DNA of 35,342 bases, taken from assembly GCA_947567625.1 (NCBI GenBank), contig CANONN010000036.1, forward strand, positions 1-35,342, given 5' to 3'. Position 1 is the first letter of the stretch; every line of letters starts with the position of its first letter. Source of the DNA: an uncultured Roseburia sp. Its GTDB lineage: Bacteria; Bacillota; Clostridia; Lachnospirales; Lachnospiraceae. The position numbers and the translations under genes are program-made. The notes beneath the pieces are model-generated. The model saw only the letters and a program-made list of their open reading frames with translations, ran no database searches and was not told the DNA's origin. Shown here one piece after another: positions 16,742-35,342 of the stretch.

Positions 16742-16794
16742 TGTCACTCGGTGGGGCATCCCTCTTGGGCTGTCCGAATCGGATGATCGGCATG

Positions 16795-20566: not shown

Positions 20567-20577
20567 TTTTTCTCTAA

Positions 20578-20648
20578 CAGGGGATGAGAGAATCGAACTC
20601 CCACCAAAGGTTTTGGAGACCCCTATCATACCATTTGACCAATCCCCT
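20578..20648 (-). tRNA. trnW: tRNA-Trp (anticodon CCA)
   Basis: 71 nt. Acceptor arms AGGGGAT and ATCCCCT pair fully. The D stem is GTCA/TGAT. The anticodon stem-loop GGGGT-CTCCAAA-ACCTT gives CCA, with two G-U pairs. The T arm is GGGAG-TTCGATT-CTCTC with one G-U pair. The discriminator is G and CCA is not encoded. It has its own promoter, leader and terminator. No integrase or repeated tRNA end is seen next to it. Confidence 0.93.
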
Positions 20649-20658
20649 AGTTAAAAGA

Positions 20659-20712
20659 CTTTCAAGGCACTTTAATTCTCTTAAAGTGTCGTATAAAAGA
20701 TATTCTTGAAAG
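20659..20712 (-). ncRNA. Structured 5' leader of the tRNA-Trp precursor
   Basis: Nested hairpin in the leader between promoter and tRNA: outer stem CTTTCAAG / CTTGAAAG (20705-20712 with 20659-20666) and inner stem CACTTTAA / TTAAAGTG. It probably folds the part removed by RNase P. No T-box consensus is recognisable. Confidence 0.5.
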
Positions 20713-20721
20713 CACTTTTTT

Positions 20722-20749
20722 ATTATACACTATTCAAAACATTTGTCAA
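20722..20749 (-). promoter_or_regulatory. Consensus promoter of tRNA-Trp
   Basis: TTGACA (20749-20744), 16-nt spacer, TATAAT (20727-20722) on the minus strand. Both hexamers are perfect. It lies 74 nt upstream of the tRNA, directing the leader and tRNA only, since a strong terminator follows. Confidence 0.85.
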
Positions 20750-20843
20750 CAATTTTTTATAACTCATTCAAAACTTTGCAGTATAAAAGAATATTTGGTT
20801 CTTATGATAGCTTCTCCATTTCCAGCATACAATATTTTTCAAC

Positions 20844-21227
20844 CTATCCAATAAATTCATCTGCCGTTAAAACCTGCCGTTCTGCCTCTTCAAAACTTGC
20901 AATGTAAAAATCGTCATAATCACTGGCATGCCTAATCTCTTCCATTTCACCAATTTTTCTTCCTATCTCGCGAGGAAAAATTTCAGTTTTCACATAATCT
21001 TTGTTAAAGCTTCCTATTGCATCTTTATGACGCTTAAATGATTTCCCACTTAATGCGTGAACCGCATTGACAGCGTGGAAAACCGCATAATAAGAACGAT
21101 TATTAGAACTTTTATATTGATCGGCTTTCAACAATATTTTCGCTGATTCTAAGTCCTCTTTTGCTGGCTGGATGCGGTATCAACACAAATCCTTTTTTGT
21201 GCCAGCCTCCTCATCCGGCTTTTCCAT
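20844..21227 (-). pseudogene. HEPN-domain protein (toxin-type) with in-frame stop
   Basis: The open part from 21179 down encodes a HEPN domain: YRIQPAKEDLESAKILLKAD, then NNRSYYAVFHAVNAVHAL, which contains the Rx6H motif of HEPN RNases. The natural start appears to be ATG 21227 (MEKPDEEAGTKKDLC), inside the end of the nucleotidyltransferase gene, with GGAG about 9 nt upstream. Codon 16 is TGA (21182-21180), directly before the conserved YRIQ, so the reading frame is broken by one nonsense codon. A TTG (21134) inside the domain is unlikely to rescue it. In intact HEPN/MNT pairs HEPN is an RNase toxin and MNT the antitoxin. Whether the stop is real or a sequencing error cannot be told from here. 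Confidence 0.75.
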
Positions 21228-21556
21228 ATAATATCACTCCCTCCTTTTGGATATTGGCATAAAATGAATAATTTTCACACCATTTTGGGAAATGTTTTGC
21301 ACTTTTGGCAATCGGCTTTATATCAACATTATGGTCTAAGTTAAAATCATATGTCATATAAGAAAGCTTCCGGCTGTACGCTTTCAATTTTAAATCTGAA
21401 ATATCCAGCAAAATCATGATATCAACATCTGAATCAATTCTAAAATCGCCTCTGGCATAAGATCCATATAAAATAATCTGCCGTAAATACATCCCATATA
21501 TCTTTTTAATCTCCTCTATAATATTGCTCGATCAAATTTAGCAATGTCTGCGGCAT
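21211..21556 (-). pseudogene. MNT-type nucleotidyltransferase (antitoxin-type), probably frameshifted near its start
   Basis: Minimal nucleotidyltransferase with IILYGSYARGDFRIDSDVDIMI, the GSxxRG...SDxD catalytic motif. The open frame with this motif has an ATG only at 21492, which lacks a good ribosome binding site and cuts the usual first helix. Upstream, ATG 21556 with a strong GGGAGG 7 nt before it opens another frame (MPQTLLNLIEQY...). Removing one T from the ATATTAT run near 21518-21525 joins the two into a natural sequence, ...LIEQYIEEIKKIYG, ahead of MYLRQIILYG. A single-base insertion is therefore the simplest reading. The HEPN gene overlaps its end by 17 nt, typical of a HEPN/MNT operon. 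Confidence 0.7.
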
Positions 21557-21736
21557 ACCAATACCTCCCTCCATTTATATGACCGTAAAACATTTATACA
21601 TTTTCAATAGTTTCAATGCTCCATATCTTATAAGACAATCTTTTTCTTCATTATAAATGATTCCATCTCCAATTACCATAGGCGATTCAAAATCGGACGC
21701 AAAAATAGTTATCGTTCGGTTACTTTTCACGGATCA

Positions 21737-21895
21737 GGAATGAGCATATGCTGCTCATTCCGTGAGAACATGATTCAGGAGTGAAAATTTTGCTACACAA
21801 AATAGGCGATAAATTTTGCTGTGCAAAATTAGCGCAGCAAAATTTATCGCCCCGAATCGTTACTATGAGCGGCCTCATAGGCCGTGAATAGTGAC
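21737..21895. repeat. Cluster of three palindromes downstream of the ABC exporter gene
   Basis: Three adjacent inverted repeats: GGAATGAGCA (21737-21746 with 21752-21761), a perfect 17-bp stem GGCGATAAATTTTGCTG (21805-21821 with 21835-21851), and an imperfect one from GTTACTATGAGCGGCC to its partner ending 21895. No reading frame fits. The stretch 21557-21903 contains no gene; 21557-21736 is AT-rich with no feature I can name. The pattern suggests an interspersed REP/MITE-like element or a structured 3' UTR. The last palindrome ends 8 nt from the exporter stop, so it may also act as its terminator. Confidence 0.6.
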
Positions 21896-21903
21896 ATCGT
21901 TCG

Positions 21904-23748
21904 TTACATATTATAATACTGCGCCTGCGCGTTCCACATTTCCCGGTATATCCCGTCCTGCCCCACCAGCGCCTCGTGGCTTCCGCTCTGGACCACATTG
22001 CCCGCGTCGAACACCAGGATACTGCCGCAGAACCGGCAGGAGGCGAGCCGATGGGAAATATAAACCGCCGCCTTGTCGCCGACCAGCTTATCGAACCCCT
22101 CATAGACGTCACATTCCGAGATCGGGTCGAGCGCCGCCGTGGGCTCGTCCATGATGACAAACGGCGCGTTTTTATAGATTGCCCTGGCGATCGCAAGCTT
22201 TTGGCGTTCTCCGCCCGATACATTGACGCCGCCCTCCTCAAAGTCCTTGCCTATATAGGTGTTAAGTCCTCCCTCAAGCCACGCGAAACGCTCATCAAAG
22301 CCGGACTTTTGCAGCGCTTCTATCGCACGCGCCTCCTCGATCTGCTCCGAAGCTGCAATATTTTCCCCAAGCTTTAAGGAAAAGATGCGGTAGTCCTGAA
22401 ACACAACAGAAAACAGCCGCAGATATTCCTCATAATCGTAATCTCTGATATCCCTGCCGTTGACGCGGATGCAACCCTCCGTGGCATCATAAAGGCGGCA
22501 CAAAAGCTTAATAAATGTGGTTTTCCCCGAACCGTTCCTGCCGACGATCGCCAGGTGGTCCCCCGGCTTTAAATCGAGTTTCAGATTGAGATCGCGGATG
22601 ACATTTTGTTCACTTCCGGGATAATGAAAGCTTACATGCTCACATTCCAAGCAAATCCCCTGTCCCGGATGATCTGCCACATGCGCCTCCCCGGTGTCTT
22701 TTTCATTCGCCAGTTCCATGTAATCCAGATAATCTCTGCCGTAGTCGACTGCCTGCTTCCAGCTCGAAAGCGTGAGCAGCATATTCTTGATTCCCTCCAC
22801 ACACTTGATCACGCTCGTGGCATATTTTACCACGCTGCCCACCGTAATCAAGCCGGCATATGCTTTCATGGCCGCATACAGATAAACCAGGCCGCAGCTT
22901 ACCATCGAGAACGTCGCTTCCAGACCGCCCTGCTTCATTCCCGCAGCGCGGATTTTTTTCAGGAAACCAATGCACGCTTCCTCATTAGCAAACATCCCAT
23001 CCTTTAACAGCTCTTTCTGATTGAAAATCCGCAGGTCTTTCCCCGTCTCACTGCCAAATAAGATATGATGCAGAATATAATTGCTCACCCGGCTGCTGTT
23101 CGCATATCCGTCAAACAGCTTCTTAATCTGTTTATTCCAGTGTTTGCTATTTTTGTAGCTTGCATATGCGGCAAGCGCAATCATAGCTCCAAGCAGAACC
23201 GAAAGCACAACATAAAGCATCCCATCCCTGCCGGCCCCCCGTGTAAAAAGAGGAAGCGCCACCGAAAAGGCCGTGATGACGCCGACCAGTCCTGTCAGCC
23301 CACGGTCCATCGGCCAAATCAGCATCCAGTACATACCGCCCCGCACATTGACCACCTGTTCCTGCCTGCGCTTTTTCTCCTGTATCGCAGGATTTTCCAG
23401 ATTTTCAAAGTCGATTGCCATACTCTGCTCATTCATATCAAAATTCTGCTTTTCCATGCAGTTTTCCACCTGGGCGTTAAAGGATTCTCTAAGCCACGCC
23501 TCCGCAATCTGCAGCACCCCGTTTGCCAAAAGCCCTCCGGACAAATAGTAAAACAAATGTAAAAAATCCATGCCCGACATCAACCCGTCGATGAGCGCAC
23601 CCGACAAAATGATCAGCACATAAGGGCGAAAGCCACCGACCAGTGAACAAAACACGCCTGTAACAATGGTTCTGGAATGGTTTTTGGCATACACGGAGAA
23701 TAATTTTCTAAATACTGTAATATCTGACATTTCTTTATTCTTGTTCAT
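21904..23748 (-). CDS. ABC exporter half-transporter (TMD-NBD), partner 1
   Basis: 614 residues: a type I exporter membrane domain (about 1-340) fused to an ATPase domain (about 370-614). Walker A is GRNGSGKTTF, the signature VSGGERQKLAIARA, Walker B FVIMDEPTAALDP and the H-loop YISHRLAS, all intact. No C39 peptidase domain is present at the N-terminus. GAGGTG lies about 6 nt before ATG 23748. It is 112 nt downstream of a second, related exporter gene in the same direction, and the two probably form a heterodimer. Substrate unknown; context suggests export of the product of the upstream cluster, but the gap to that cluster and its own possible promoter leave this open. Confidence 0.9.
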   Translation of the reverse strand: MNKNKEMSDITVFRKLFSVYAKNHSRTIVTGVFCSLVGGFRPYVLIILSGALIDGLMSGMDFLHLFYYLSGGLLANGVLQIAEAWLRESFNAQVENCMEKQNFDMNEQSMAIDFENLENPAIQEKKRRQEQVVNVRGGMYWMLIWPMDRGLTGLVGVITAFSVALPLFTRGAGRDGMLYVVLSVLLGAMIALAAYASYKNSKHWNKQIKKLFDGYANSSRVSNYILHHILFGSETGKDLRIFNQKELLKDGMFANEEACIGFLKKIRAAGMKQGGLEATFSMVSCGLVYLYAAMKAYAGLITVGSVVKYATSVIKCVEGIKNMLLTLSSWKQAVDYGRDYLDYMELANEKDTGEAHVADHPGQGICLECEHVSFHYPGSEQNVIRDLNLKLDLKPGDHLAIVGRNGSGKTTFIKLLCRLYDATEGCIRVNGRDIRDYDYEEYLRLFSVVFQDYRIFSLKLGENIAASEQIEEARAIEALQKSGFDERFAWLEGGLNTYIGKDFEEGGVNVSGGERQKLAIARAIYKNAPFVIMDEPTAALDPISECDVYEGFDKLVGDKAAVYISHRLASCRFCGSILVFDAGNVVQSGSHEALVGQDGIYREMWNAQAQYYNM

Positions 23749-23784
23749 TTTTCACCTCATTTTTGCGCGGCTCTTTGCGCATAA

Positions 23785-23844
23785 CAAGTTTGTGGATGCC
23801 GCGCAGACACAAACTTGCAGATTGAAAATTTTAATTTTCAATCT
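23785..23844. repeat. Two perfect palindromes between the exporter genes
   Basis: CAAGTTTGTG (23785-23794) pairs with 23808-23817 (10 bp, 13-nt loop). AGATTGAAAAT (23819-23829) pairs with 23834-23844 (11 bp, 4-nt loop). They fill most of the 112-nt gap. On the minus strand no U-run follows, so these look like processing or REP-like sites, not simple terminators. Confidence 0.6.
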
Positions 23845-23860
23845 TTACCTCCCATTCGCT

Positions 23861-25732
23861 TTACGCTTCCATTGCCTTTTGCCTGATCTTTTCTGCTTCC
23901 TGTTCCTTATAATATTTGCTCTGCAACTCAAAAAGCTCTGCATATCTGCCGTTTTTTTCTATCAGCTCATCATGCGTCCCGCTCTCTGTAATACGGCCGT
24001 TCTCAAGAAGTATGATACGGTCACAAAACCTGGTGGAAGAGAGACGGTGCGAAATATAGATGGACGTCTTCCCCCGCGACGCTTCGCTGTATTTTAAATA
24101 AATCTCGTTCTCCGCGATCGGGTCGAGCGCCGCCGTGGGCTCATCTAAAATCAGCAGCGGCGCTTCCTTATATAAAGCCCGGGCGAATAAAAGCCGCTGT
24201 TTCTCGCCTCCTGAAAAGTCCACGGCATCTTCATTGATCTCTCTTATCAGCATACTCCCGCCTTTCTTTGGCAGCTTCCCATACCGCTCCAGGAAACCGG
24301 ACAGTGCAAGCGTTTCCCGCAAACGCGCTTGCTTTACTTTATCTCCCGGCACGGAGGCAATATTCTCGTCAACCGTCAAAGGCAGCAGCGTAAAGTCCTG
24401 AAACAATACAGAAATCAGGCTATAATACTGCTCTCTGTCAAAATCCTCAATATTTCTGCCGTTTAAAAGAATCTCACCGCCCGTCGGCTTATAAAAACCG
24501 CAGATCAGCTTGACCAGCGTCGTTTTCCCCGCGCCGTTTAAGCCGATCAGCGCCAGCTTTTCCCCCGCGGCAATCGTGAGGTTCATGTGCGAGATCACCG
24601 GCTTTGCTTTTTCGTCATAGGTAAAGCTCACATCCCTAAGTTCTAAGGTCACGGGCGCCCGCTTTATCTCATCCACCTCTTCTTCGGCCGCACGTTTCCC
24701 CTCGTTTCTGTGCTCTTTCGTATCAAAATAATCCCGGATGCTGCTGAATGTATTGCTGATAATACCAAACGACAGCGCCTCCCGCATCGCTAACAGCATT
24801 TGCTCCGCAAAGCTGTTGGCAAATCCAAAGAACAGGACAAATTGTGAAATGCCAAGCCTCCCGTTTGCCGTCAGATAAATAAGATATGTATAAACAAGCC
24901 CGTTTCGCAGAAAATCGAGCCCCGCATCGGCTACATTGCGCAGAAAATACCAGTTGTGCACCTTGCCGTACAGACGATTCATATCTGTCAGGTTATCCAT
25001 ATATTTTTTTGTCAGCCAGTCCTGCATACGAAAAATGCGGATATCCTTGCCCGAAGCCGTCTCCATCGTTTGGTTCGTCAGATAATTGAGTTTCTTGGAA
25101 TAATTGGATAAATGTGGATGCTGCTCGCTGTGCTTTTGCCGTGCCAGCTTCAAAAACCAGATCTGTATGACTGCGCAGGGTATCGCCAGCACAATAATCC
25201 ATATGCTCACTCTCGCTAAGAGTACCGCATAGACGGCAGCGGGAATCAGATAGTTAAGAAATGTTGAAAGACGAAGCGTGGCGTCGTCAATGCCCCTGCC
25301 CTGATAGATGGCTGTGTAAGAAGCGTTGGCCTGCGTCTGGAAGTTCTTCTCCTCGAGCACATCATAGTCCACTTTCATCTTTTTTTCCACATAGGGCTTA
25401 GAATAATGCGCCCGATATATGGTTCTGCTGTTTTCCATAAACGCCTGCGCCATATTCTGAAGCATTGTGCAAACCCACAGCGCAAGAATCAGCACGATCA
25501 AGGTAAAAAAATACCGCTGTATCCCCCAGCTGCTCTCGAGGCCGACCACGACGACCGACGGCAGAACATTACCCAGGATACTAGCGGCTGTCCAAGGAAT
25601 CAACGCCAGAAACCCCATCCAAAAAACCAAAGGTTCCTGGCGTCTTAAGTTGACATAATGATATTTTAGATTACTAAAAAAACTGTACCTGCCATTGGAT
25701 TTTTCCATCCTAGCGCCATTGCTGAAAATCAT
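23861..25732 (-). CDS. ABC exporter half-transporter (TMD-NBD), partner 2
   Basis: 623 residues: membrane domain (about 30-340) and ATPase domain (about 375-610). Walker A is GLNGAGKTTLVK, the signature FSGGEKQRLLFARA, Walker B LLILDEPTAALDP and the H-loop IYISHRLSS, all intact, so neither half of the pair looks catalytically degenerate. The C-terminus is charged (KEQEAEKIRQKAMEA). ATG 25732 is chosen because AAAGGAG precedes it by 6 nt; an in-frame extension to 25795 has no support. It follows the kinase-like gene after about 230 nt containing a possible promoter. Confidence 0.9.
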   Translation of the reverse strand: MIFSNGARMEKSNGRYSFFSNLKYHYVNLRRQEPLVFWMGFLALIPWTAASILGNVLPSVVVVGLESSWGIQRYFFTLIVLILALWVCTMLQNMAQAFMENSRTIYRAHYSKPYVEKKMKVDYDVLEEKNFQTQANASYTAIYQGRGIDDATLRLSTFLNYLIPAAVYAVLLARVSIWIIVLAIPCAVIQIWFLKLARQKHSEQHPHLSNYSKKLNYLTNQTMETASGKDIRIFRMQDWLTKKYMDNLTDMNRLYGKVHNWYFLRNVADAGLDFLRNGLVYTYLIYLTANGRLGISQFVLFFGFANSFAEQMLLAMREALSFGIISNTFSSIRDYFDTKEHRNEGKRAAEEEVDEIKRAPVTLELRDVSFTYDEKAKPVISHMNLTIAAGEKLALIGLNGAGKTTLVKLICGFYKPTGGEILLNGRNIEDFDREQYYSLISVLFQDFTLLPLTVDENIASVPGDKVKQARLRETLALSGFLERYGKLPKKGGSMLIREINEDAVDFSGGEKQRLLFARALYKEAPLLILDEPTAALDPIAENEIYLKYSEASRGKTSIYISHRLSSTRFCDRIILLENGRITESGTHDELIEKNGRYAELFELQSKYYKEQEAEKIRQKAMEA

Positions 25733-25841
25733 AGGTTGCTCCTTTCTTTGTGTAAAGTATTTTCTGTGCATCTCACGCTGTGGATTCTCTTTCAAGCGAA
25801 TCTGCGCAGAAAACGTAACATCTTGTATAATGTTGTTTTAG

Positions 25842-25869
25842 AATATAACACATGTATTCGGTTAAGCAA
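25842..25869 (-). promoter_or_regulatory. Possible promoter of the exporter pair
   Basis: TTGCTT (25869-25864), 16-nt spacer, TATATT (25847-25842) on the minus strand, about 110 nt upstream of the exporter ATG. Two mismatches in the -35 box and one in the -10 box, in AT-rich sequence, so this is a modest call. Confidence 0.35.
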
Positions 25870-25965
25870 GAATTTTTTATATAAATCAATATACAAAATG
25901 CCGACTCTGTGGCATTATAATCGTAATCTGTATGATAAAACTTGCTCTAATTCCCGTAATTGCAG

Positions 25966-26634
25966 TCATATACATAATAATCCTTTACACGATCTCATAA
26001 TTTCATTGCAAGTTACATTCACATCCCTATTGCGATTAATCGTTATCCATTTGTGATCCGCAGCCAAATGATCATATATTGCTTTCATCTTGGTTTGATG
26101 TTTTACAAAATCGCTTTGTATCCCTACAAATGCCCCTGATTCAACTCGATTTGTATTGGAATTTTCTCGTATGCATTCACCAGGGGCAGCCGTAAGATAA
26201 AAAACTATGTCCGGTTTAAGCAAAAAATCAAATTCTTTTTCTGTGTCAAAATGTCCACTGCTATATATAGCCTTAACAATTTCTTTATAAACATAACCAT
26301 CCGTGACAATCGTTATCCCCTGCTCCAAAACAGGCAATATCATATGTTGTTCAAAAGCACTATACCATGCCAACATCAAATAGCGCCAATGTTCTCGATT
26401 AAAACCATTATATTCAATATCGGGCGCCTTAGAAAACACCTCTCCTTTCCTCCATAAAATGGCATAAAGGTATTCCATATGTAATCTTATGTAATCACTA
26501 TCTACAGGCAACATCTTTCTATTTATATATTTACACTTTTTTTCCAGATTAAGCATTTCACACAAAATATAGGCACAAGAAGTCTTTCCCACCCCATCTA
26601 TTCCCTCTAAACTAATTAATTTACCCCGCTCCAT
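25966..26634 (-). CDS. Thymidylate-kinase-like P-loop nucleotide kinase
   Basis: 222 residues. Starts RGKLISLEGIDGVGKTS (P-loop 11-18), the dTMP kinase N-terminal pattern. A later VTDGYVYKEIVKAIYSSG stands where Tmk has DRY/DRW, and PDIVFYLTAAPGECIREN is the region before the LID. Lengths fit Tmk (about 210), but the DR motif is altered to DG and the middle part is unusual, so it may phosphorylate a different (modified) nucleotide. GGGGAGGG precedes the ATG at a suitable distance. AT-rich codon use like its upstream neighbours and unlike the GC-rich genes before 21 kb. It is 94 nt downstream of the NDT-like gene. Housekeeping Tmk is expected elsewhere. Confidence 0.7.
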   Translation of the reverse strand: MERGKLISLEGIDGVGKTSCAYILCEMLNLEKKCKYINRKMLPVDSDYIRLHMEYLYAILWRKGEVFSKAPDIEYNGFNREHWRYLMLAWYSAFEQHMILPVLEQGITIVTDGYVYKEIVKAIYSSGHFDTEKEFDFLLKPDIVFYLTAAPGECIRENSNTNRVESGAFVGIQSDFVKHQTKMKAIYDHLAADHKWITINRNRDVNVTCNEIMRSCKGLLCI

Positions 26635-26728
26635 ATTCTAACCCTCCCCTTTCTTAGGTATCGTTACATTTCGGTTAAACTTAGATACAGCTTAACTACT
26701 TTCAATATAATGGCCTTAATAAATACTC

Positions 26729-27499
26729 TTAAAAGTTTAGACCTATCTCATACGGAAATGGAATTGACAAATCTTTTGGTCTTTCCGTAAATATAATTCT
26801 CTTAGAATGGGCGATCATAAAGCCAAACTCGAACATAGTTCCTTTTCCAACTACGCCTTTGGGATTGCAAACTATAATAGCATCAGCATGTCTAAACTTA
26901 TCCATATGTTCATATTTGTGCCTCCATGCATCTCGCTCATTTTTAAGTGGCTCCTGCCCCTCTAAAAGAATAAAATCTGTTCCTAATGTCTCTGGCACAA
27001 CTTTCGTCGTCCAGGGGCTCAACACTTTTACATTGTATATGCCTAACAAATTCATAATATCATCTATTTCTTTTAAATGTTGTTGAAAACTCCCACATAT
27101 AACGACTTTTCTAAACTCTTGGATAACCAATCCATTTATCATTCCTTCTAAACCTCTTTCAAGGCTCTTTTCCATATAAAATCTTTCTAAATCAGGTTTG
27201 ATTATATTAAAAAAAAGTCCCCAATTTATATAGATATGAATGATCAATCTGTTCTGTTCTTTCAGAGTTAATGTCTGAAAAATTCCAGTAGCATATATCC
27301 TGACAAACTCGTTATTAATCTTATCAGTATAATTGTTTAAGCTTTTTAAAAAGTTTTCGCAACCAATCAATAACTTTTCTATATCTAAATTCTTTTCAAA
27401 TAAATACCTTTCCCTACCTAATATATGTAACGATTTATTTTTCAGGCTATATATAATGACGTTATAAGATTCAAAATGAATCAGTATTTTATCTTCCAT
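26729..27499 (-). CDS. Protein with C-terminal nucleoside 2-deoxyribosyltransferase-like domain
   Basis: 256 residues. The C-terminal half (about 130-256) has an NDT/N-glycosidase-like Rossmann pattern: RKVVICGSFQ, the HADAIIVCNPKGVVGKG strand-loop and GTMFEFGFMIAHSKRIIFTE, where the Glu in FEF would be the likely nucleophile and the last strand is typical of the family. Such domains cleave or exchange the glycosidic bond of nucleosides or nucleotides. The N-terminal 125 residues (FVRIYATGIFQ, INWGLFFNIIKPDLERFY) are not firmly recognised; they recall a Ppx/GppA-like ATGIF pattern only weakly. AGAGAGG precedes the ATG. It lies between the SMUG2-like glycosylase gene and the kinase-like gene, fitting a nucleotide-directed pathway. 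Confidence 0.55.
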   Translation of the reverse strand: MEDKILIHFESYNVIIYSLKNKSLHILGRERYLFEKNLDIEKLLIGCENFLKSLNNYTDKINNEFVRIYATGIFQTLTLKEQNRLIIHIYINWGLFFNIIKPDLERFYMEKSLERGLEGMINGLVIQEFRKVVICGSFQQHLKEIDDIMNLLGIYNVKVLSPWTTKVVPETLGTDFILLEGQEPLKNERDAWRHKYEHMDKFRHADAIIVCNPKGVVGKGTMFEFGFMIAHSKRIIFTERPKDLSIPFPYEIGLNF

Positions 27500-27592
27500 A
27501 TTATAGCAACCTCTCTCGTAATAATCCTTAAACTGTTAATTACACTTTGATCCTCGTCAAAATATACAGGGAATATTGATGCCACATTTTAT

Positions 27593-28297
27593 TTAATTAT
27601 TTAAGGCATTTATATATTTATCAATAAACTTTTTTTTGTCCTTAGAATTATATTGCATAATATATCGTGGGTGCTCTAACGGTACTATTTTTTCAAAAAA
27701 ACAATATTTACTATTGATTTTTGATAAAAAACTATAATTTTCACCACTGCCAATACAATAACACAAGGTAGCATCAATCCCAAGCTTTATCTGGTTTCTT
27801 ATCGAATTTACAATAAACGGATATAACGCCTCCTGTAATTTTTTATTTTCATAATAATTACAATTAACCTCATTACCTTTTGAATTTTTTTTGACTATTC
27901 CTAGCGGGCAAACAAAATTCATATAAAAATCAGTATAAAATTTTCTATATCCTCCGTATGTTCTCATAACTTCATTAAGGAAATCTGATGAGGCCTGACT
28001 GACATGCCCCCCCTCCAAAAATACACCCGTTTCATTTTGAAGGTGTTCTGTATCTTCAAAAGGTACTCCTGTTATAGCCGTCCCACGACGCGCGGGCGAA
28101 CTTCCAAGGATTATACGCCGTACACCAAAATCATTATAATATTTCTGATAAAATACAGTTGTAACCTTTTTAACCAGTTCTTTTTGTTCACCCAGAAACG
28201 GATTTAAAAGTCTAAATCCTGAAGGCAATACAAGTGTTTCATTCATAAGCGTTTCATTAAATAGCATGATTCTCTCAGCCATTGTTTTCTCTTTCAT
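27593..28297 (-). CDS. SMUG2-like uracil-DNA glycosylase (DUF4918 type)
   Basis: 234 residues. The active-site motif region is RRIILGSSPARRGTAITGVPFED (the SMUG/UDG-type motif 1 with TGVPF), followed by MNFVCPLGIVKKNSKGNEVNCNYY, and the C-terminal EHPRYIMQY stands at the HPxP-like motif 2. The combination is that of the SMUG2/DUF4918 branch of the uracil-DNA glycosylase superfamily as I recall it. It would remove uracil or a damaged pyrimidine from DNA. ATG 28297 is used; an overlapping TTG just before it is rejected. It begins 24 nt after the upstream methyltransferase stop, so the two are probably co-transcribed. AT-rich codon use. Confidence 0.75.
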   Translation of the reverse strand: MKEKTMAERIMLFNETLMNETLVLPSGFRLLNPFLGEQKELVKKVTTVFYQKYYNDFGVRRIILGSSPARRGTAITGVPFEDTEHLQNETGVFLEGGHVSQASSDFLNEVMRTYGGYRKFYTDFYMNFVCPLGIVKKNSKGNEVNCNYYENKKLQEALYPFIVNSIRNQIKLGIDATLCYCIGSGENYSFLSKINSKYCFFEKIVPLEHPRYIMQYNSKDKKKFIDKYINALNN

Positions 28298-28321
28298 CAA
28301 ATGAACTCTCTTTCCTTTTCA

Positions 28322-29566
28322 CTAAGTCATTGCTGTTAAATATATTTCAGTATTGGTAGGAATTAGGTTAATATGATCAAATCCTATATCAAGCAACTCA
28401 TTCTGTATTGATTTTATTGTATCTAAACCACGATATAAGTCTACAAATTCTGTTCCTGGAATTATCAAGCCAGAAATGATACACTCACGCTCTTGATACA
28501 AAAAGCCATTTGCTACAGAAATAATTATTACCGCATTAGATTTCAAAACTCTGCGCGCTTCTAACAATGCTTCTTTTACATTAAAAAAAGATGAATTGTA
28601 CGTTCGCAGAGAAACATATAAATCATAACTATTATCAGGTAATAAAGACAGATTGTCCGCACTCGAAACCATAACTTTTGATAAAGGAATAAATTTCTTT
28701 ATATTTTTCAAACCTGCCTTTGCAATATCAACAAACGTCACATGCTTACAACCAAAAAATAAATTCAATGCTTCTTGTCCACCGCCAACACCAACATTTA
28801 ATATATTAGCATTAGATATATCCGCTGTAAATGCCCCATCGCAAATAGCCATAAATTTTTTCTTCCAATCTAAATCTATGGAACGGGCATCATGTACATA
28901 ACTATATTTACCATATTTAAAATTGAATGCCTCTGATATAGCATCGCTTACAATACCATAGGCATCCTGATACCCTGCTTTATATTTTTTGCAAATTAAA
29001 GATGCTATCGCACTCATCTTTTTGTTTTTAACTAATTCATCTACAGAAATGTTAAAACCCTTTGCATTTAGATTCTCAACAACGAATGAACTAATTCTAT
29101 TATCTGAATAATAGGAACTACACTTAATACTTTGCATACTATCTGCAAAATATTTCTTATGCAATTCCATTATTTCAAGTTTCAAATTGTCTGGATAACG
29201 ATACACATTATTAAACATAATAACAGGGTCCTGATTAGAATAATTTGCCAAGTGCGTATCTGGCAGACCTATATATATTTCTCGAACGCATATCTCATTC
29301 AGAACATCGTTTAAACTAAAGGAACCATCCGCTGATAATGTGTTTACTGTAACATAAACACTCTGTGCCGTAGAAATCCTAAGCTTTTTCGCCTTATGTA
29401 ATAGTATGGAACACCATGATTCATAACACTCTTCATTTGAACAAGCAGCGCAAAGCATTTCATTTCTCTCTGAAACGAGAATAGCCCCTACACATAAATT
29501 GGATTTATTTACTTGTTTAGTAATACTAATAGAATAATTCATCCAGTAAATATTACGATCATTCAT
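28322..29566 (-). CDS. Degenerate RibD-like deaminase domain fused to SAM methyltransferase
   Basis: 414 residues. Residues 1-110 follow the plan of a RibD-type deaminase: YWMNYSISITKQVNKSNLCVGAILV, then EECYESWCSIL at the HAE site (CYE, 47-49; Glu kept), then VYVTVNTLSADGSFSLNDVL where EPCSHHGRTPPC would stand. Both zinc-binding cysteines of that segment are replaced, so the domain is probably inactive or a binding module. Residues 250-400 are a class I methyltransferase: NILNVGVGGGQEALNLFF (motif I), the VTFVD acidic residue (D280) and a YDLYVSLRTYNSSFF region. The linker (about 120-250) is not recognised. Substrate unknown; a small molecule or nucleotide is likelier than DNA, since no target recognition domain is seen. 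Starts with GAG about 8 nt before the ATG. Confidence 0.65.
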   Translation of the reverse strand: MNDRNIYWMNYSISITKQVNKSNLCVGAILVSERNEMLCAACSNEECYESWCSILLHKAKKLRISTAQSVYVTVNTLSADGSFSLNDVLNEICVREIYIGLPDTHLANYSNQDPVIMFNNVYRYPDNLKLEIMELHKKYFADSMQSIKCSSYYSDNRISSFVVENLNAKGFNISVDELVKNKKMSAIASLICKKYKAGYQDAYGIVSDAISEAFNFKYGKYSYVHDARSIDLDWKKKFMAICDGAFTADISNANILNVGVGGGQEALNLFFGCKHVTFVDIAKAGLKNIKKFIPLSKVMVSSADNLSLLPDNSYDLYVSLRTYNSSFFNVKEALLEARRVLKSNAVIIISVANGFLYQERECIISGLIIPGTEFVDLYRGLDTIKSIQNELLDIGFDHINLIPTNTEIYLTAMT

Positions 29567-29679
29567 TTATTAACTCATTTCCCCATAAAAGCGTTCTGTA
29601 ACTTCATAATACTGTTTTTATATCATTCAACATTTACTTACAATAAAAGTCCAAATCAGTTTTATATTTTCATCATGAT

Positions 29680-30336
29680 TTACTTCACATCCACGACTAT
29701 TTCATCAAAGCTTTTTCGAGTAAGCCCCAGCGCAATGGCTTTCCAAAGATAAGAAGAAACTATTGTTGCATTCTTTATCCAATTGGAAAAATACTCTGTC
29801 AATTCTTCCGCTGAAGGTATGCTTTCGAGATTATACATCCATTGAATCGCCCTTCTAATTGTTCTATCCTGTTTTGAAAGCACATTCTCTCTTCCCAACG
29901 AAAATATTAAATACATTTCTGCTGTCCACTGTCCAATGCCCTTTAATTCCGTCAGTTTATCAATAATCTCTTTGTTAGACAACACCCGATATTCTTCAAA
30001 ATCAATTACTTTTTCACTAGCACTTACAGCCAAGGACTTTATGTATTCGGCTTTCCTACCAGATAATCCTAAACTGCGGAGTTCGCTGATTTCAGTTGAT
30101 AAAATAATATCAGGCATAACATCGCCTAAAGTTACACAAAGTCTTTGCCAAATAGTTTCTCGTGCCTTATCGCTAATTTGCTGACCGATAATATATTTAA
30201 CAAGACATTGAAAACCATTCTTTTCTATAGTCAATTCACTAGTACGAATATATTTAAGTAGTTTGCCTAATTTCTCATCCGATTTAACAAGGTATTGCAC
30301 CTTTTCATCTTTTAAATCAAATTTTAATAAATACAT
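29680..30336 (-). CDS. AlkA-type DNA-3-methyladenine glycosylase (HhH-GPD)
   Basis: 218 residues, helix-hairpin-helix glycosylase. CLVKYIIGQQIS (44-55) is the AlkA-family segment. LKGIGQWTAEMYLIFSL (131-147) is the hairpin, and D157 (LSKQDRTIRRA) stands at the catalytic aspartate position. There are no C-terminal iron-sulphur cysteines. The length is that of short firmicute AlkA proteins lacking the N-terminal domain. It should excise alkylated purines from DNA. Start ATG 30336 is preferred over an upstream TTG because GGGAG lies 8 nt before it. The 94-nt gap to the upstream BtrH-N-like gene holds at most a weak promoter. Confidence 0.88.
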   Translation of the reverse strand: MYLLKFDLKDEKVQYLVKSDEKLGKLLKYIRTSELTIEKNGFQCLVKYIIGQQISDKARETIWQRLCVTLGDVMPDIILSTEISELRSLGLSGRKAEYIKSLAVSASEKVIDFEEYRVLSNKEIIDKLTELKGIGQWTAEMYLIFSLGRENVLSKQDRTIRRAIQWMYNLESIPSAEELTEYFSNWIKNATIVSSYLWKAIALGLTRKSFDEIVVDVK

Positions 30337-30430
30337 AAACCTATCTCCCAATATTGATAAACAAAAACATTTACCTGTTCATCCTGTTAATATAATAGAT
30401 TCCAACCATATAACATCGGCAAACTTCACA

Positions 30431-31471
30431 TCATACCAGCTTTATATGACTTATCATATACTCAAATAAAGCTTCTTCCTTTTCATAAACATTCTGAATA
30501 TTCTCCTTTATTTTCTGCAATATTTTTCTATCTTTTGTCATATTATATTTGAGCGTCAACGACAACAATATCTTATACATTTTATCAATTTCAGCAAAAC
30601 CATCTTTTATGCCACCCGCCGTCTCAAGATACCCTTTTTCACCTAAATAATCCATTCGCTCCAGCATAAGCTGTGTGCGCTCTGCAGGAACCGTAAAAAA
30701 TTTAAAATTTACCTTTTTCAAGTTCTCCCCCGCAATGATTTCCTCCAGCTTATGCAGTGTCTCTATACCATAGACGGCCTCAGCAAAATAGTAACCGTCG
30801 CCCAGATTACATAAATGCGACAGATTCGTAGAATTCAAGTAATTTTCACATTGAATTTTCAGTGCTTCCGGCTCAAAACGATAGGCAAAATCTGTTCTGT
30901 TGCGGTACAAAACCGCATCCTCCGACCCAAAATATCTTTGGTTAAGGAACAGCATATCCCTTTTGGCATCGCTGTAAAATGCCTTGCGCAAATCATCAAA
31001 TGAGAGCTCTTTAAAACCAAACCTGCGGTGGATATAAAAATCCCCCACGCTGCACACCTTTCTTGTCCGGTCATAACCATACAACAGGGTCGGATGCCAG
31101 AAGTGCCAGTCATTTTGATACCAGTCGCTGCACGGGATATAATAAGTGTCCAGATACAGCATGATATAATAATCGTGATCAATCATATCTAAAATAAACG
31201 CAAATACATCCTCCCATTTTTTCATGATGAGATCTCTGGAAATCCGCAGATAATCAATACAGGGGCACTGTGTATGGTTGACCAACGGATAAAAATTCAT
31301 ATCCGGCCCATATCTTAAAGTATACATAATCTGATTCACATAATTGCCCATCAGCCAGTCTTTGGCTTTCGGGTTTGTCAACACCCCGGATAACAGATAA
31401 CCGTGTTCCGTATTTGACGCAACGATCGGCTGCACTACCGGCAGCACTTTTGACTCCTGTCCACTTCCCAT
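30431..31471 (-). CDS. BtrH-N-like protein of a natural-product cluster
   Basis: 346 residues. The middle segment, YIMLYLDTYYIPCSDWY, then HFWHPTLLYGYD and VGDFYIHRRFGFKELSFDDL, resembles the peptidase-fold N-terminal domain of butirosin protein BtrH, where residues such as C114 (or D108), H126 and D144 could form an active site. BtrH transfers an acyl group from a carrier protein to the antibiotic, which would suit the carrier protein encoded upstream. The remaining C-terminal 150 residues are helical and not recognised. AGAGGT lies 7 nt before the ATG. The resemblance is from pattern only, so function is a suggestion. Confidence 0.5.
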   Translation of the reverse strand: MGSGQESKVLPVVQPIVASNTEHGYLLSGVLTNPKAKDWLMGNYVNQIMYTLRYGPDMNFYPLVNHTQCPCIDYLRISRDLIMKKWEDVFAFILDMIDHDYYIMLYLDTYYIPCSDWYQNDWHFWHPTLLYGYDRTRKVCSVGDFYIHRRFGFKELSFDDLRKAFYSDAKRDMLFLNQRYFGSEDAVLYRNRTDFAYRFEPEALKIQCENYLNSTNLSHLCNLGDGYYFAEAVYGIETLHKLEEIIAGENLKKVNFKFFTVPAERTQLMLERMDYLGEKGYLETAGGIKDGFAEIDKMYKILLSLTLKYNMTKDRKILQKIKENIQNVYEKEEALFEYMISHIKLV

Positions 31472-31531
31472 TTGTCTTACCTCTAATTTATAATGCTTCC
31501 CGTTCCCATAACCGCCTGTCAGCAGCTGAAT

Positions 31532-32683
31532 TTACTTCTTCAGCTCCTGCTGTATTCTGTCAAAACGTTTACTCTCGTCCTCTATGTTATTCCATGCCTC
31601 CCGCTTTCTTTCCATAGAAAACACCCTTTCATAAAATCCCATATTCCAATTATATACCTCATCGCTGTTATCTCTTCCCTTATATTGATGCAGGAAAGAT
31701 ACATCATCCATCCCCAACATATCAAAAACGCCGGAATCCACCGTGCCAGGATACAATAACTCGGTATAAGAAAGCGTATGGTAAACTTCTTTTTTCCGGT
31801 TCATTTCTGCGCACACCGAAACCAGCCTGTCCCAGTCAACCGGACTTTTCCTGATAAACATATGGATATCCATATATTTGTACAAAACCATATCCTCGCC
31901 ATTGGCAATCTTATAGATCATCGTCGCCTCTCTATAATGGTGTATACATAAAAAAATCAGAAATCTCTCGACGGACAGCGTCTGAATTTTTGCCCCACCG
32001 ATCTCCAGCCGCACGACATCCGAGAGCATTTGCGACGCAGCCTCATTTCCGTCCTCATTACTCAGACGAAAATTAATGTCCACAGCATGGTATGCAAGAT
32101 ATCTCTCGTCGATTGGCTTTAAAAAAGGAACAATCTCATATGTATTCATCCGCGCGAAAAAAAGCTCTTTCTTCGTCGCCGGCATAAAAACCCCGTGTTC
32201 CAATTTCCCCTGGCGATACCCCAAGTCGCGCATCAATTGACAGCACAAATCCAAATCCTTTACATCAACCATCAAGTCGGAATCTCCCGATATCCGCTCG
32301 CCTTTTTCATAGTATAAAACATTTAAAACCGCCCCCTTCATAAAGGCATAGCGAACACCGTTCTCATATAACACCTCGTCAATCCGTCGTATTTCCTGCT
32401 GATGTAACTTTGTTCTCTGCACCATCTCCTCGTACACCGCCCGCAGATAAAAATGGATTCTCCACGGGATCCCATTCATTCCCCGCAATTTCCGGTACAC
32501 AACTCCATTGACACGGTGGTAAAGAATCAATCCCAAAAAGGACGCCCAATCCATATCCTGCTGCTTTAACAGTTTCTGAACATATGCGCTCTCATCCTCT
32601 TCCAATTGATTTCTGGAGCACAGCAGCATAACCTGCTCATGCGTTTTATACGGTTGTAATTTATCTATAACATAGCTGCTCAT
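31532..32683 (-). CDS. NTP_transf_5-type uncharacterised nucleotidyltransferase
   Basis: 383 residues. RYAFMKGAVLNVLYYEKG (111-128) followed by RISGDSDLMVD (130-140) is the lysine-glycine plus GDSDxxVD core of the Nucleotidyltransferase_5 family (PF14907 type), which is common in lasso-peptide, capsule and other biosynthetic clusters. The likely metal ligands are D134, D136 and D140. Flanking helices (Leu-rich, 40-110) are as in the family. No substrate is known for most members. I start at ATG 32683, which has GAGGAGG at a good distance; an upstream ATG (32734) overlapping the dehydrogenase stop by 4 nt is an alternative. Confidence 0.7.
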   Translation of the reverse strand: MSSYVIDKLQPYKTHEQVMLLCSRNQLEEDESAYVQKLLKQQDMDWASFLGLILYHRVNGVVYRKLRGMNGIPWRIHFYLRAVYEEMVQRTKLHQQEIRRIDEVLYENGVRYAFMKGAVLNVLYYEKGERISGDSDLMVDVKDLDLCCQLMRDLGYRQGKLEHGVFMPATKKELFFARMNTYEIVPFLKPIDERYLAYHAVDINFRLSNEDGNEAASQMLSDVVRLEIGGAKIQTLSVERFLIFLCIHHYREATMIYKIANGEDMVLYKYMDIHMFIRKSPVDWDRLVSVCAEMNRKKEVYHTLSYTELLYPGTVDSGVFDMLGMDDVSFLHQYKGRDNSDEVYNWNMGFYERVFSMERKREAWNNIEDESKRFDRIQQELKK

Positions 32684-32730
32684 AAGTATCCTCCTCGTTG
32701 CTTTTTTATATTTCTGCGCTGCTTTGGTAT

Positions 32731-33483
32731 TCATTTAATCCTGGAATCAATATTAAAGATCTGTCCGCTGATTCCATTTACAAGATCTGATGCAAGGAAT
32801 GCGACAAAATGCACAAAATCCTTCATTCCAAAAGCAATCTGCATCGTGCTCATATCTTTCGCAATGTGATATTTGTTTGTATTGCCACGATTCAAATCTG
32901 TCGCAATATACCCCGGACAGATTGCATTCACGCTAATATTGTGCTGTCCCATTTCCTTTGCCATAGACTTTGTCAATGCGATCACCGCAGCATTTGACGC
33001 AGCAAAATTCGACTGCCCCTCCGAGCCGAGATGACCTTGTAAATACGCAATATTTATAATTTTCCCATTTCTTTTTTGAATCATATTTTTACTGAAATAT
33101 TTGCTGCACAAAAAAGTCCCGTTAAGATTCGTCTGCATGACTCCATTCCATCTTTCCTCAGACAAAAAATGCACGTAATCATCATCATTCTTCCCCGCGT
33201 TGTTAATCAATACATCTATTTTTCCATATTCCCGCAGGACTTTACGGTACATAGCGTGAACCTGTTCCTCATCTGATACATCTGCCCGGCACAACAGGCA
33301 GCGGCGGTTATATTGCCTGATTTCCCCAAGCGTCTCCTTAGCTTTTGATTCGTCATGACAATAATTGACAGCCACGTCTGCTCCAAGCTTTGCCAGCTGC
33401 AGTGCCACTTCTTTGCCTAATCCCTTGGACGACCCGGTGATCATAATGACTTTATCCTCAAATAGCGTTTCAAACATCCCCAT
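32731..33483 (-). CDS. Short-chain dehydrogenase-like (FabG-like) protein lacking the catalytic triad
   Basis: 250 residues. The fold and cofactor site are intact: TGSSKGLG (16-23), ADVSD (67-71), NNAG (94-97) and N119. The length and PGYIATDLNRG region match 3-oxoacyl-ACP reductases. The three catalytic residues are all replaced: Ser to Ala (A146), Tyr to Phe (F160) and Lys to Asn (N164), where FabG has a Ser...YxxxK set. I checked the codons TTT and AAT on the minus strand. It therefore cannot act as a normal reductase and may be a scaffold, a ligand-binding protein or an enzyme with other chemistry. Its start overlaps the carrier protein gene by 14 nt, showing tight coupling. Confidence 0.85.
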   Translation of the reverse strand: MGMFETLFEDKVIMITGSSKGLGKEVALQLAKLGADVAVNYCHDESKAKETLGEIRQYNRRCLLCRADVSDEEQVHAMYRKVLREYGKIDVLINNAGKNDDDYVHFLSEERWNGVMQTNLNGTFLCSKYFSKNMIQKRNGKIINIAYLQGHLGSEGQSNFAASNAAVIALTKSMAKEMGQHNISVNAICPGYIATDLNRGNTNKYHIAKDMSTMQIAFGMKDFVHFVAFLASDLVNGISGQIFNIDSRIK

Positions 33484-33745
33484 CCAGTCTCTTTTCTACC
33501 GCAGCTTTCAAACCGCCATATATTTTTAATTCTTCCATATCCATGTCATTGACATCAAACTCCATATCAAACGCCGCCTCAAGTTCCACTACAAGCTCCA
33601 CCATCAAAAAAGAATCAAATCCCAGGCTCTCAATGAGGTCTGTCTGCTCGTTTTTTAATTTCTGTTCGATTTCCTCTTTTTTTAATTCCAGCCTGCATAT
33701 GTTACAAATCGTATCCTTTAATAGTTTCTCATCCGCTGCCTTCAT
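33470..33745 (-). CDS. Acyl/peptidyl carrier protein
   Basis: 91 residues, acidic. SLGFDSFLMVELVVELEAAF (40-59) is the phosphopantetheine-attachment region with Ser45 in DSF. Three-helix plan and length fit carrier proteins. GFDSF rather than GxDSL suggests a specialised carrier. The ATG lies 1 nt after the stop of the ligase gene, and its own end overlaps the dehydrogenase-like gene, so translation of the three is coupled. I place the start at 33745 because longer in-frame extensions would run into the ligase gene. It is probably loaded by the adjacent ligase. Confidence 0.88.
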   Translation of the reverse strand: MKAADEKLLKDTICNICRLELKKEEIEQKLKNEQTDLIESLGFDSFLMVELVVELEAAFDMEFDVNDMDMEELKIYGGLKAAVEKRLDGDV

Positions 33746-33746
33746 C

Positions 33747-35225
33747 TCAGTTTTTCCGCCCTTTCCTTTTGATTTTTCCGGTATATGTCTTTTCAAATTC
33801 CTCGCAAAAAACAATTCTGCCCGGCACTTTATTCCCCGGCAGCCTCTTTAGGCAGTACTCTATGAGCTCCCTGCCATCCGCCTTTGCCCCTTCTTTTAAG
33901 ATGACCCTGGCAATCGGCACCTCGCTTAAGATAGGATGCGGCTCTGCCGTCACCAACGCTTCTTTCACCTTGTCATGGCCCAGCAAAACCTCCTCGATTT
34001 CCTCCGGGTATATGTTTAATCCGCCGGAAATAATCACATTTTTTAACCTTCCGGCAATATATAAATACCCCTCCTCGTCAAACCTCCCCAAGTCACCGGT
34101 ATGCAGCCAGCCGTTTTCTATCGTTTTGGCGGTGATTTCCGGCTGCTTATAATAGCCCTTCATCACATTATCGCCCTTGACCAGGATTTCCCCCGTTTCC
34201 CCCGGCGGCAGCTCTCTTAACTGCTTATCGGCAATTTTTACCGTTACCCCCGGTATCGGCTTTCCGACGGAACCGATCTTTCTTTTGGCGTCCTCCGGCA
34301 GCAGACATGTCACTCGCGGCGACGCTTCTGTCTGCCCATAGGTCTGTATCACACCTGTCTTGTCAAAAAAACACAATATCTTCTCCAGCTTGTCTATTGG
34401 CATACTTCCGCCCCCGAAGCAGAGATAGCGCAGAGAGGATAAATCGTATGTTTCACGCCTGCAGGCATTGATCACCATAAACAGCATCGACGGCACACAG
34501 GTCGTGTTGGTGCACTTTTCTCTGTCAATCAATTCTAAAAACTTTCTTGGATAAAAAGAAGAATCATAAATCACCAGACTAGCGCCGACATACAGATGGG
34601 ATAAAAACTGTGAGGTATTGCAGTATCCAAAAAACATCGGCAGGATAATCAGGCAGCGGTCATCTTCCCGCAAATCAAGCGACGCCACATTGGACTCTAT
34701 ATTGGCAAGCAGGTTGCGGTTTGTCAGCATGACTCTCTTTGGATTGCTCGTTGTGCCGGATGTGTGGAGCATAATCGCCACGTCCGTTTCATCCTCGCCG
34801 CCCACCTCGATATAGGCACATTCCGGGTTTGCAACAAATGTTTGACCCGTCTCCACATTGTAGATGTCTACCCGGTATGGATAATCGGCAAGCATTTCAA
34901 AGAGTTTTTGGTCATTTCCTGTGTTGGTAAGCACAAGTGAGATTTCACAATATTTTAAGATGCTTCTTACGGAATCTTTTTTTGCATGATCTTCTATTGG
35001 AATAATAACCTTGTCCATATATGCGATTGTAAAATATGCGATGGCATATTCGATTGAATTATTGATAAAGATTCCTATGTTACGGTTGGATGTTTTCCTG
35101 CTTAAAATATCTGCATTTTTTACTGCATTATTATGTAATTCTTTGTAGGTAATATTTCTGTTCTGATAAGTAATCGCAATTTTATGGTTATTCATTTGAT
35201 GGGATAAAATATTCTTAATTTTCAT
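33747..35225 (-). CDS. Stand-alone adenylate-forming ligase (acyl-CoA/acyl-ACP synthetase type)
   Basis: 492 residues, ANL superfamily. Motifs in order: LHTSGTTSNPK (153-163, P-loop), GQTEAS (297-302), LHTGDLG (374-380), GRLKNVIISGGLNIYPEEIE (392-411, hinge and loop) and TYTGKIKRK (480-488, with catalytic K484). It activates a carboxylic acid as an acyl-adenylate and passes it to a thiol, most likely that of the carrier protein encoded 1 nt downstream. The acid cannot be read from the sequence. An upstream ATG at 35258 overlaps the stop of another frame (ATGA) and could be used by coupling; I prefer 35225, which has AAGGA 8 nt upstream. Confidence 0.88.
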   Translation of the reverse strand: MKIKNILSHQMNNHKIAITYQNRNITYKELHNNAVKNADILSRKTSNRNIGIFINNSIEYAIAYFTIAYMDKVIIPIEDHAKKDSVRSILKYCEISLVLTNTGNDQKLFEMLADYPYRVDIYNVETGQTFVANPECAYIEVGGEDETDVAIMLHTSGTTSNPKRVMLTNRNLLANIESNVASLDLREDDRCLIILPMFFGYCNTSQFLSHLYVGASLVIYDSSFYPRKFLELIDREKCTNTTCVPSMLFMVINACRRETYDLSSLRYLCFGGGSMPIDKLEKILCFFDKTGVIQTYGQTEASPRVTCLLPEDAKRKIGSVGKPIPGVTVKIADKQLRELPPGETGEILVKGDNVMKGYYKQPEITAKTIENGWLHTGDLGRFDEEGYLYIAGRLKNVIISGGLNIYPEEIEEVLLGHDKVKEALVTAEPHPILSEVPIARVILKEGAKADGRELIEYCLKRLPGNKVPGRIVFCEEFEKTYTGKIKRKGRKN

Positions 35226-35254
35226 TATTCTTTCCTTTTGCATATTTTTTAATC

Positions 35255-35342
35255 TCATTTTACCAAAATGATCCCCTCTTCCCCGTCCATTCGTTTCTTC
35301 TCATAGTTATTTTTAAACCACTGTAAAATTACTATTATATTC
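35255..35342 (-). CDS. C-terminal end of a CDS cut by the right edge
   Basis: On the minus strand a frame is open from the window edge for 28 codons (...VILQWFKNNYEKKRMDGEEG...VK) and ends with TGA at 35257-35255, which overlaps an in-frame ATG of the ligase as ATGA. This suggests a further upstream gene of the same operon. The stretch is too short to identify, and a chance open frame is possible; a TATAAT-like sequence (35339-35334) at the edge would argue instead for a promoter here. Confidence 0.35.
   Translation of the reverse strand, partial: NIIVILQWFKNNYEKKRMDGEEGIILVK

Follow-up and report, generated by a model that had tools for sequence, protein, structure and literature searches.

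A rare, mobile row of glycosylase-type and methyltransferase genes beside acyl carrier genes in an uncultured Roseburia: a candidate modified-base clearance cassette

Glycosylase self-resistance is known from AlkZ, HedH4 and YtkR2, whose genes lie within or beside biosynthetic genes; AlkZ-type HTH_42 glycosylases provide the precedent (PMC9040887), and the families described also include the AlkD-related YtkR2 (PMC8626424). Human DNPH1 cleaves 5-hydroxymethyl-deoxyuridine monophosphate (hmdUMP) while SMUG1 excises 5-hydroxymethyluracil (hmU) from DNA, according to the account in PMC10603095. The UDG-superfamily proteins Brig1 and Brig3 are reported as proven anti-phage glycosylases (PMC11078745, PMC13160076), and MilB of mildiomycin and BcmB of bacimethrin are nucleoside monophosphate N-glycosidases, mildiomycin synthesis being described with a thymidylate-synthase-like enzyme, MilA (PMC5175136). 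Here, an entire contig of an uncultured Roseburia sp. (CANONN010000036.1, positions 1-35342, referred to as the window) was analysed, and within it a row of glycosylase-type and methyltransferase genes, module B, is compared with these systems.

Module B resembles the AlkZ, HedH4 and YtkR2 loci in that glycosylase genes lie close to biosynthetic ones, but its glycosylases are of the HhH-GPD and SMUG2-like types (Pfam: HhH-GPD and UDG only) and not HTH_42 as in AlkZ or AlkD as in YtkR2, it adds a putative nucleotide N-glycosidase and a pseudo-deaminase methyltransferase, and it often occurs without biosynthetic genes. As with human DNPH1 and SMUG1, a predicted DNPH1/MilB-fold nucleotide N-glycosidase is paired with a SMUG-family protein; unlike the human pair, these belong to one gene row with a methyltransferase, and the N-glycosidase is fused to half a Ppx/GppA domain. 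Brig1 and Brig3 share with module B a UDG-superfamily protein on mobile DNA and, at two loci, restriction genes alongside, whereas the cassette is multi-gene, its UDG-like protein is of the SMUG2 type, and biosynthetic neighbours occur in many genomes. BcmB was among the top structural matches of the C-terminal N-glycosidase domain; in contrast to the MilB and BcmB pathways, DNA glycosylases are present and a thymidylate-synthase-like partner is absent from the ten window genes covered by family scans (Pfam, NCBIfam; modules A and B, exporter-like open reading frames (ORFs) excluded). No description of the cassette was found in the open-licence literature searched. What is new is a rare mobile set, made up of a divergent SMUG2 protein, a DNPH1/BcmB-fold hydrolase with half a Ppx/GppA domain and a pseudo-deaminase methyltransferase, that is tied to carrier-protein chemistry in two lineages. 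The reading I favour, and to which I give an even chance, is of module B as a modified-base clearance cassette that moves horizontally, serving self-protection beside biosynthetic genes and cross-protection where it stands alone.

Twelve minus-strand genes run from the ligase (35258) down to the second ABC exporter-like gene (21904) and divide into module A (30431-35258), module B (25966-30351) and the exporters, not one set (Table 1). The base composition is a mosaic, with 42.4% GC in module A, 32.5% in module B, 48.9% in the exporter region (21904-25795) and 52.9% at positions 1-20000. A first-pass annotation had read all of this as one candidate natural-product cluster with built-in DNA repair, tightly coupled from the ligase to the BtrH-like gene. 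The strand and location of its genes were right, and ligase, carrier, short-chain dehydrogenase/reductase (SDR), NTP_transf_5, HhH-GPD, UDG and methyltransferase assignments are backed by Pfam. Tight coupling holds from ligase through carrier and SDR to NTP_transf_5 (1-nt gap, 14-nt overlap, 4-nt overlap) and does not extend to the BtrH-like gene, which follows 60 nt after NTP_transf_5, or to the genes beyond, spaced by 21 to about 170 nt. The annotation also placed two glycosylases before the methyltransferase, where the actual order is HhH-GPD, methyltransferase, UDG, and it overlooked the Nuc_deoxyrib_tr-like and thymidylate-kinase-like genes.

Searching plasmids with tblastn, the UDG-like protein matched eight records (six Streptomyces) and the methyltransferase five (all Streptomyces), and the three plasmid loci examined each carried a collinear methyltransferase-UDG-N-glycosidase trio, 46-58% identical to that of the window. 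Scanning a species-genome collection with the methyltransferase alignment gave at least 28 loci, a lower bound because the scan uses exact short peptides. Together with the three plasmid loci, this made 31 comparison loci outside the window (numbered with the prefix L), 16 in actinobacteria (Streptomyces, Kitasatospora, Saccharothrix), 12 in Bacillota and three in alphaproteobacteria. The trio stood side by side in 28 of them; L035 and L040 stop at a contig edge, and L017 runs into transposase-like genes (by eye). Co-occurrence of the trio exceeds chance, as does the sharing of nine of the ten window genes by BLAST with a Roseburia metagenome-assembled genome (L016, below). HhH-GPD preceded the methyltransferase in the window and in 8/31 loci, none of them among the 16 actinobacterial ones. 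A NUDIX gene occupied its place just upstream in L030 and L036, and one lay downstream of the trio in 6/16 actinobacterial loci, neighbours that fit nucleotide-pool cleaning, though NUDIX genes are common. The thymidylate-kinase-like protein was present in the window and L016, absent from the other 30 of the 31 loci, and found in one of 392 genomes searched, the window's own.

Among relatives, the UDG-like protein was likewise restricted to the window's own genome (1/61, with no match in the 60 others), as was a full-length methyltransferase match (1/299 family genomes); 76 other family genomes matched the methyltransferase partially, at about residues 190-413 and with no more than 46 bits. 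Ordinary base-excision repair was not favoured as the main explanation given this restriction. A phage origin was also considered and dropped: the methyltransferase alignment gave 31 pattern-matching stretches on viral contigs, none of which was confirmed, and the N-glycosidase had no phage match. Three gene trees, built from 27 loci and the window, agreed on an actinobacterial clade and on pairing L036 with L037 and L031 with L034. Placement of the window had poor resolution (methyltransferase tree: grouped with L016 and L020, 84/86).

Signs of mobility accompanied the cassette. At ten loci its GC content was compared with that of the flanks, and it was at least 13 points poorer in three (13 to 19) and about 8 in two; an AT-rich cassette within GC-richer surroundings was also seen in the window. 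Transposase-like genes adjoin it in L015, L020 and L031 (by eye), a MobL relaxase and a type IV secretion system coupling protein in L018, another coupling protein in L034 and a CHC2 protein in L019. The cassette is a rare, mobile set that recurs as a unit in distant bacteria.

The four proteins shared between loci all look suited to handling a nucleobase: two would meet it within DNA, one as part of a nucleotide, and the fourth is a likely base-binding methyltransferase. In the HhH-GPD glycosylase, the column of the catalytic Asp was invariant in 9/9 aligned rows. The UDG-like protein aligned over its whole length with the solved protein 5h0j (E 7e-61, residues 6-233), which I take to be the SMUG2 of P. 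heparinus (database listing: uncharacterized protein). Listeria monocytogenes encodes a protein (L013:8001-8708) that shares the GSSPARRG motif of the UDG-like protein and stands alone, with no cassette alongside, and the UDG query also matched four unannotated Listeria phage records. The N-terminus of the methyltransferase fusion gave a weak deaminase match in the family scan (E 0.03) and, in the profile alignment by which alone this half was examined, aligned to RibD; the RibD/CDA zinc motifs HxE and PCxxC were found in 0/30 full-length rows. The structure-comparison (VIA) list for the methyltransferase model covered residues 205-414 alone well.

The N-glycosidase fusion carries the N-terminal half of a Ppx/GppA domain, not the two-domain catalytic unit of Ppx/GppA phosphatases. 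This likeness came from fold comparison, a profile comparison with one Ppx/GppA protein having given nothing (prob 2.3). For the C-terminal domain, BcmB and DNPH1 tied as nearest in the fold comparison, and a GTxFExG motif kept its Glu in 29/29 rows, a residue that may be equivalent to E104; a profile search against solved structures gave no match at E 0.1 and one deoxyribosyltransferase at E 0.64. L022 encodes a separate 300-aa Ppx/GppA-family protein (L022:8415-9317, E 3e-9) directly upstream of its HhH-GPD gene, notable because the cassette N-glycosidase bears half such a domain.

Biosynthetic neighbours were found in two lineages. A Roseburia metagenome-assembled genome (L016 with L076) holds NTP_transf_5, ligase, carrier, SDR, two ABC genes, a 506-aa BtrH-like protein and the full module B. 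Nine of the ten window genes were recovered there by BLAST at 36-72% identity, the tenth being a remote counterpart: the two BtrH-like proteins gave no direct match, are joined through common relatives and are 22% identical in the alignment. This cluster has 30-38% GC, compared with 47.5% upstream, where housekeeping genes lie (by eye), and 40.9% downstream, and after its kinase gene comes one for a truncated S-adenosylmethionine synthetase that keeps its central and C-terminal domains (L016:14255-14824). Downstream of the trio, 15/16 actinobacterial loci (all but that of Saccharothrix, L027) encode an acyl carrier protein (ACP)-ligase, a ketosynthase (KS), a second KS-like protein and an ACP-thioesterase, a set that sits on linear plasmids in at least three strains. 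The first KS retains Cys-His-His (by eye), and its best NCBIfam match, below the family cut-off, was AmcF of cispentacin synthesis, which with AmcG is described as performing one C2 elongation and cyclisation (PMC10698177). The actinobacterial adenylating enzyme, carrier and KS pair recall AmcB, AmcF, AmcG and AmcH, but the actinobacterial carriers are fused to ligase and thioesterase, and the window has no KS. No paper on the actinobacterial set was found in the open-licence literature searched.

Within module A, the first-pass label BtrH-N-like fared poorly in the window protein itself, which had no Pfam match at E 1 and no NCBIfam match at E 0.1; two remote relatives matched BtrH_N below its cut-off (E 0.037 and E 0.004), so the label is weak. 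Relatives of this protein (22-28% identity) occur in 20/298 other family genomes (21/299 with the window's own). Ten of their surroundings were fetched, and in 5/7 readable ones the gene lies between an ACP gene and one resembling a phosphopantetheinyl transferase (PPTase). These rows of ACP, BtrH-like and PPTase-like genes are in L078, L083, L084, L085 and L087, all from the window's family, and adjoin nusG, rplK and rplA in the first four (by eye); Pfam confirmed the PPTase in L078, L083 and L084. The row is a conserved and as yet uncharacterised carrier-protein trio. In the ten window genes scanned, no nonribosomal peptide synthetase, polyketide synthase, condensation or PPTase domain was found, nor did inspection of L016/L076 by eye reveal one. 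Because the contig stops at 35342, this genome offers no further sequence to the right.

Taken together under the clearance reading, the HhH-GPD and SMUG2-like glycosylases would excise a modified or analogue base from DNA, and the fusion of half a Ppx/GppA domain with an N-glycosidase would take the same base off (deoxy)nucleotides, preventing its re-incorporation. The methyltransferase, with its base-binding pseudo-deaminase domain, would methylate the freed base or a precursor and so block salvage. Beside acyl-ligase and carrier genes, as in the window, L016 and most actinobacterial loci, the cassette would shield the organism that makes a compound modifying or mimicking bases; standing alone, it would protect a non-producer. 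Ligase and carrier could together yield an acyl compound, possibly with transfer by the BtrH-like protein. In favour of this reading count the recurrence of the trio and the groupings shared by its trees, the added HhH-GPD or NUDIX genes, the fold of the N-glycosidase domain and the human DNPH1-SMUG1 parallel, the pseudo-deaminase domain, the AT-rich composition and mobile neighbours, the precedent of glycosylase self-resistance, and the acyl-ligase/carrier neighbours in two lineages. These last also lend partial support to the genotoxin self-resistance proposed in the first-pass annotation, the observation behind which was partly confirmed. Such neighbours are present in the window and L016 and, as a different set, in most actinobacterial loci; the glycosylases, however, are of other families than the known resistance enzymes, and most non-actinobacterial genomes lack the ligase. 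Since the glycosylases are accompanied by nucleotide-pool and base-binding proteins, a modified or analogue base is indicated as readily as a bulky adduct. With the cassette lying here next to a small gene set that could yield a natural product, a putative self-protected DNA-damaging compound is plausible.

Several observations weigh against the clearance reading. The window SDR is without its catalytic motif, which the 51% identical L016 homologue retains, so that product formation by the window genome is doubtful and the acyl module may no longer work as before. Motif I of the SMUG2-type protein is GSSPARRG in 31 of 32 rows and GSSPAWRG in the other, the GINPG of the solved protein not being present, and base excision is hence not assured. 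For the N-glycosidase domain, the fold comparison ranks a deoxyribosyltransferase level with DNPH1, neither DNPH1 nor BcmB is among the 50 Foldseek matches listed, and no counterparts of DNPH1's catalytic Asp and Tyr could be assigned. Cassette GC was within 5 points of the flanks in 5/10 loci, whose hosts are AT-rich, and L022 changes place between trees, joining the actinobacteria for the N-glycosidase only. The ligases of the window and actinobacterial lineages are about 24% identical. A search for the window-type ligase at E <= 1e-60 in 14 non-actinobacterial genomes, many of them metagenome-assembled (that of L035 was outside the set), missed it in 13, L016 being the sole carrier; this goes part of the way towards glycosylases without the ligase/carrier set in most relatives, an outcome that the first-pass annotation had named as refuting its proposal. 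What the sequences themselves show is the arrangement of the genes, their homology and recurrent association, signs of mobility, motifs retained or lost and predicted folds; enzyme activities, substrate, existence of a product and protection are all inferred. Finally, the L022 cassette has type III restriction genes, an SNF2 helicase gene and phage tail genes for neighbours, and that of L017 lies beside a type III methyltransferase.

These last two loci speak for anti-phage defence, in which the cassette would excise or hydrolyse modified bases of phage DNA and nucleotides in a Brig-like manner, with the biosynthetic neighbours secondary. The precedent of Brig1 and Brig3, the sparse, mobile distribution and a weak match of the methyltransferase part to mads_2 in PADLOC (E 7e-7) point the same way. 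Against this, HhH-GPD, UDG and N-glycosidase had no PADLOC match at E 0.1, 5/10 neighbour proteins scanned (from L015, L017, L018, L037 and L042) had none at E 1e-5, Brig-type action needs neither an N-glycosidase nor a small-molecule-type methyltransferase, and one conserved acyl set adjoins nearly every actinobacterial trio, which leaves defence a serious but unlikely account. Alternatively, the N-glycosidase, methyltransferase and kinase may assemble a nucleobase moiety for a nucleoside-type product, the role that MilB and BcmB play in making mildiomycin and bacimethrin, and the DNA glycosylases alone would protect; with no counterpart of MilA among the scanned genes, the ligase missing from almost all non-actinobacterial genomes searched and the kinase from all comparison loci but one, I consider this quite improbable. 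Least probable of all is that a cassette for general repair or immunity came to lie next to acyl-carrier genes with which it has no functional link: the GC step between the window modules (42.4 vs 32.5%), the many non-actinobacterial cassettes without ligase and the occurrence of BtrH-like genes in other clusters agree with chance, yet the Roseburia metagenome-assembled genome keeps its nine BLAST-detected genes in a single AT-rich cluster, and an independent ligase/carrier set adjoins the actinobacterial trio in all loci but one.

The two ABC exporter-like ORFs are present downstream on the same strand, as first annotated, and share 23-29% identity with annotated ABC proteins of L014; they were not accepted as sure cluster members, given a GC content like that of the host and a second, partial copy at another place in the genome. 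Positions 18000-25795 of the window are not conserved whole in the genus, with partial matches of 67-72% identity in 6/40 other genomes. An Rfam search of positions 20000-35342 found a tRNA alone, tRNA-Trp at 20577-20649, adjoining a small nucleotidyltransferase/HEPN-like pair (20844-21492, MntA/HepT toxin-antitoxin-like, by eye). Promoter-like signals numbered 54, against 39.1 (sd 5.5) in shuffled sequence, and terminator-like signals 9, against 10.0 (sd 3.3); these counts gave nothing usable. Positions 3-13190 hold, by eye, a microcompartment-type set (aldehyde dehydrogenase, aldolase, EutP-like, shell-like, glycyl radical enzyme and activase) together with sugar kinase and sugar ABC transporter genes.

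Table 1. Genes of the minus-strand row in the window, and comparison loci with the actinobacterial acyl set.
Feature	Position or loci	Strand	Remarks
Module A: acyl/aryl AMP-forming ligase	33747..35258	-	Pfam AMP-binding, E 1e-75; 51% identity to L016; 84 nt from contig end
Module A: acyl carrier protein, GFDS site	33470..33745	-	PP-binding, E 1e-6; 32% identity to L016
Module A: SDR-family protein without catalytic motif	32731..33483	-	adh_short, E 1e-56
Module A: NTP_transf_5 nucleotidyltransferase-like	31532..32734	-	E 3e-39; 42% identity to L076
Module A: remote BtrH-like protein	30431..31471	-	BtrH_N only below cut-off, in relatives
Module B: HhH-GPD DNA glycosylase, MAG/AlkA type	29680..30351	-	HhH-GPD, E 5e-15
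Module B: RibD-type pseudo-deaminase + class I methyltransferase fusion	28322..29566	-	Methyltransf_11, E 2e-10
Module B: SMUG2-type UDG-superfamily protein, GSSPARRG motif I	27593..28300	-	UDG superfamily, E 1e-12
Module B: N-terminal Ppx/GppA half + DNPH1/BcmB-fold putative nucleotide N-glycosidase fusion	26729..27499	-	Nuc_deoxyrib_tr-like, below cut-off
Module B: thymidylate-kinase-like protein	25966..26634	-	Thymidylate_kin, E 7e-12; 72% identity to L016
ABC exporter-like protein 1, membership unsure	23861..25795	-	named by eye; GC host-like
ABC exporter-like protein 2, membership unsure	21904..23748	-	named by eye; part of DNA copied on contig C19, 71% identity
ACP-ligase/KS/KS-like/ACP-thioesterase set	L010-L012, L021, L023-L026, L028, L029, L032, L033, L038, L039, L041		Streptomyces, Kitasatospora

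In its widest form, the clearance reading would describe a prokaryotic system not previously reported that excises, hydrolyses and caps a non-canonical base, a gene-row version of SMUG1-DNPH1 with a base methyltransferase added. It would guard Bacillota and streptomycetes that make acyl compounds of a new, base-modifying class, and spread alone on mobile elements as orphan immunity; I hold this tentatively, as a possibility that may well prove wrong. Should defence instead be the correct explanation, the cassette would be a multi-gene base-excision defence. If the clearance reading is true, co-occurrence of the trio would become a genome-mining handle for a modified-base threat, with the likely maker next door in streptomycetes, and would hint at base-directed natural products of a class not yet described. 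It would also offer a bacterial model of DNPH1-SMUG1 sanitation, which the account in PMC10603095 indicates to be of medical interest.

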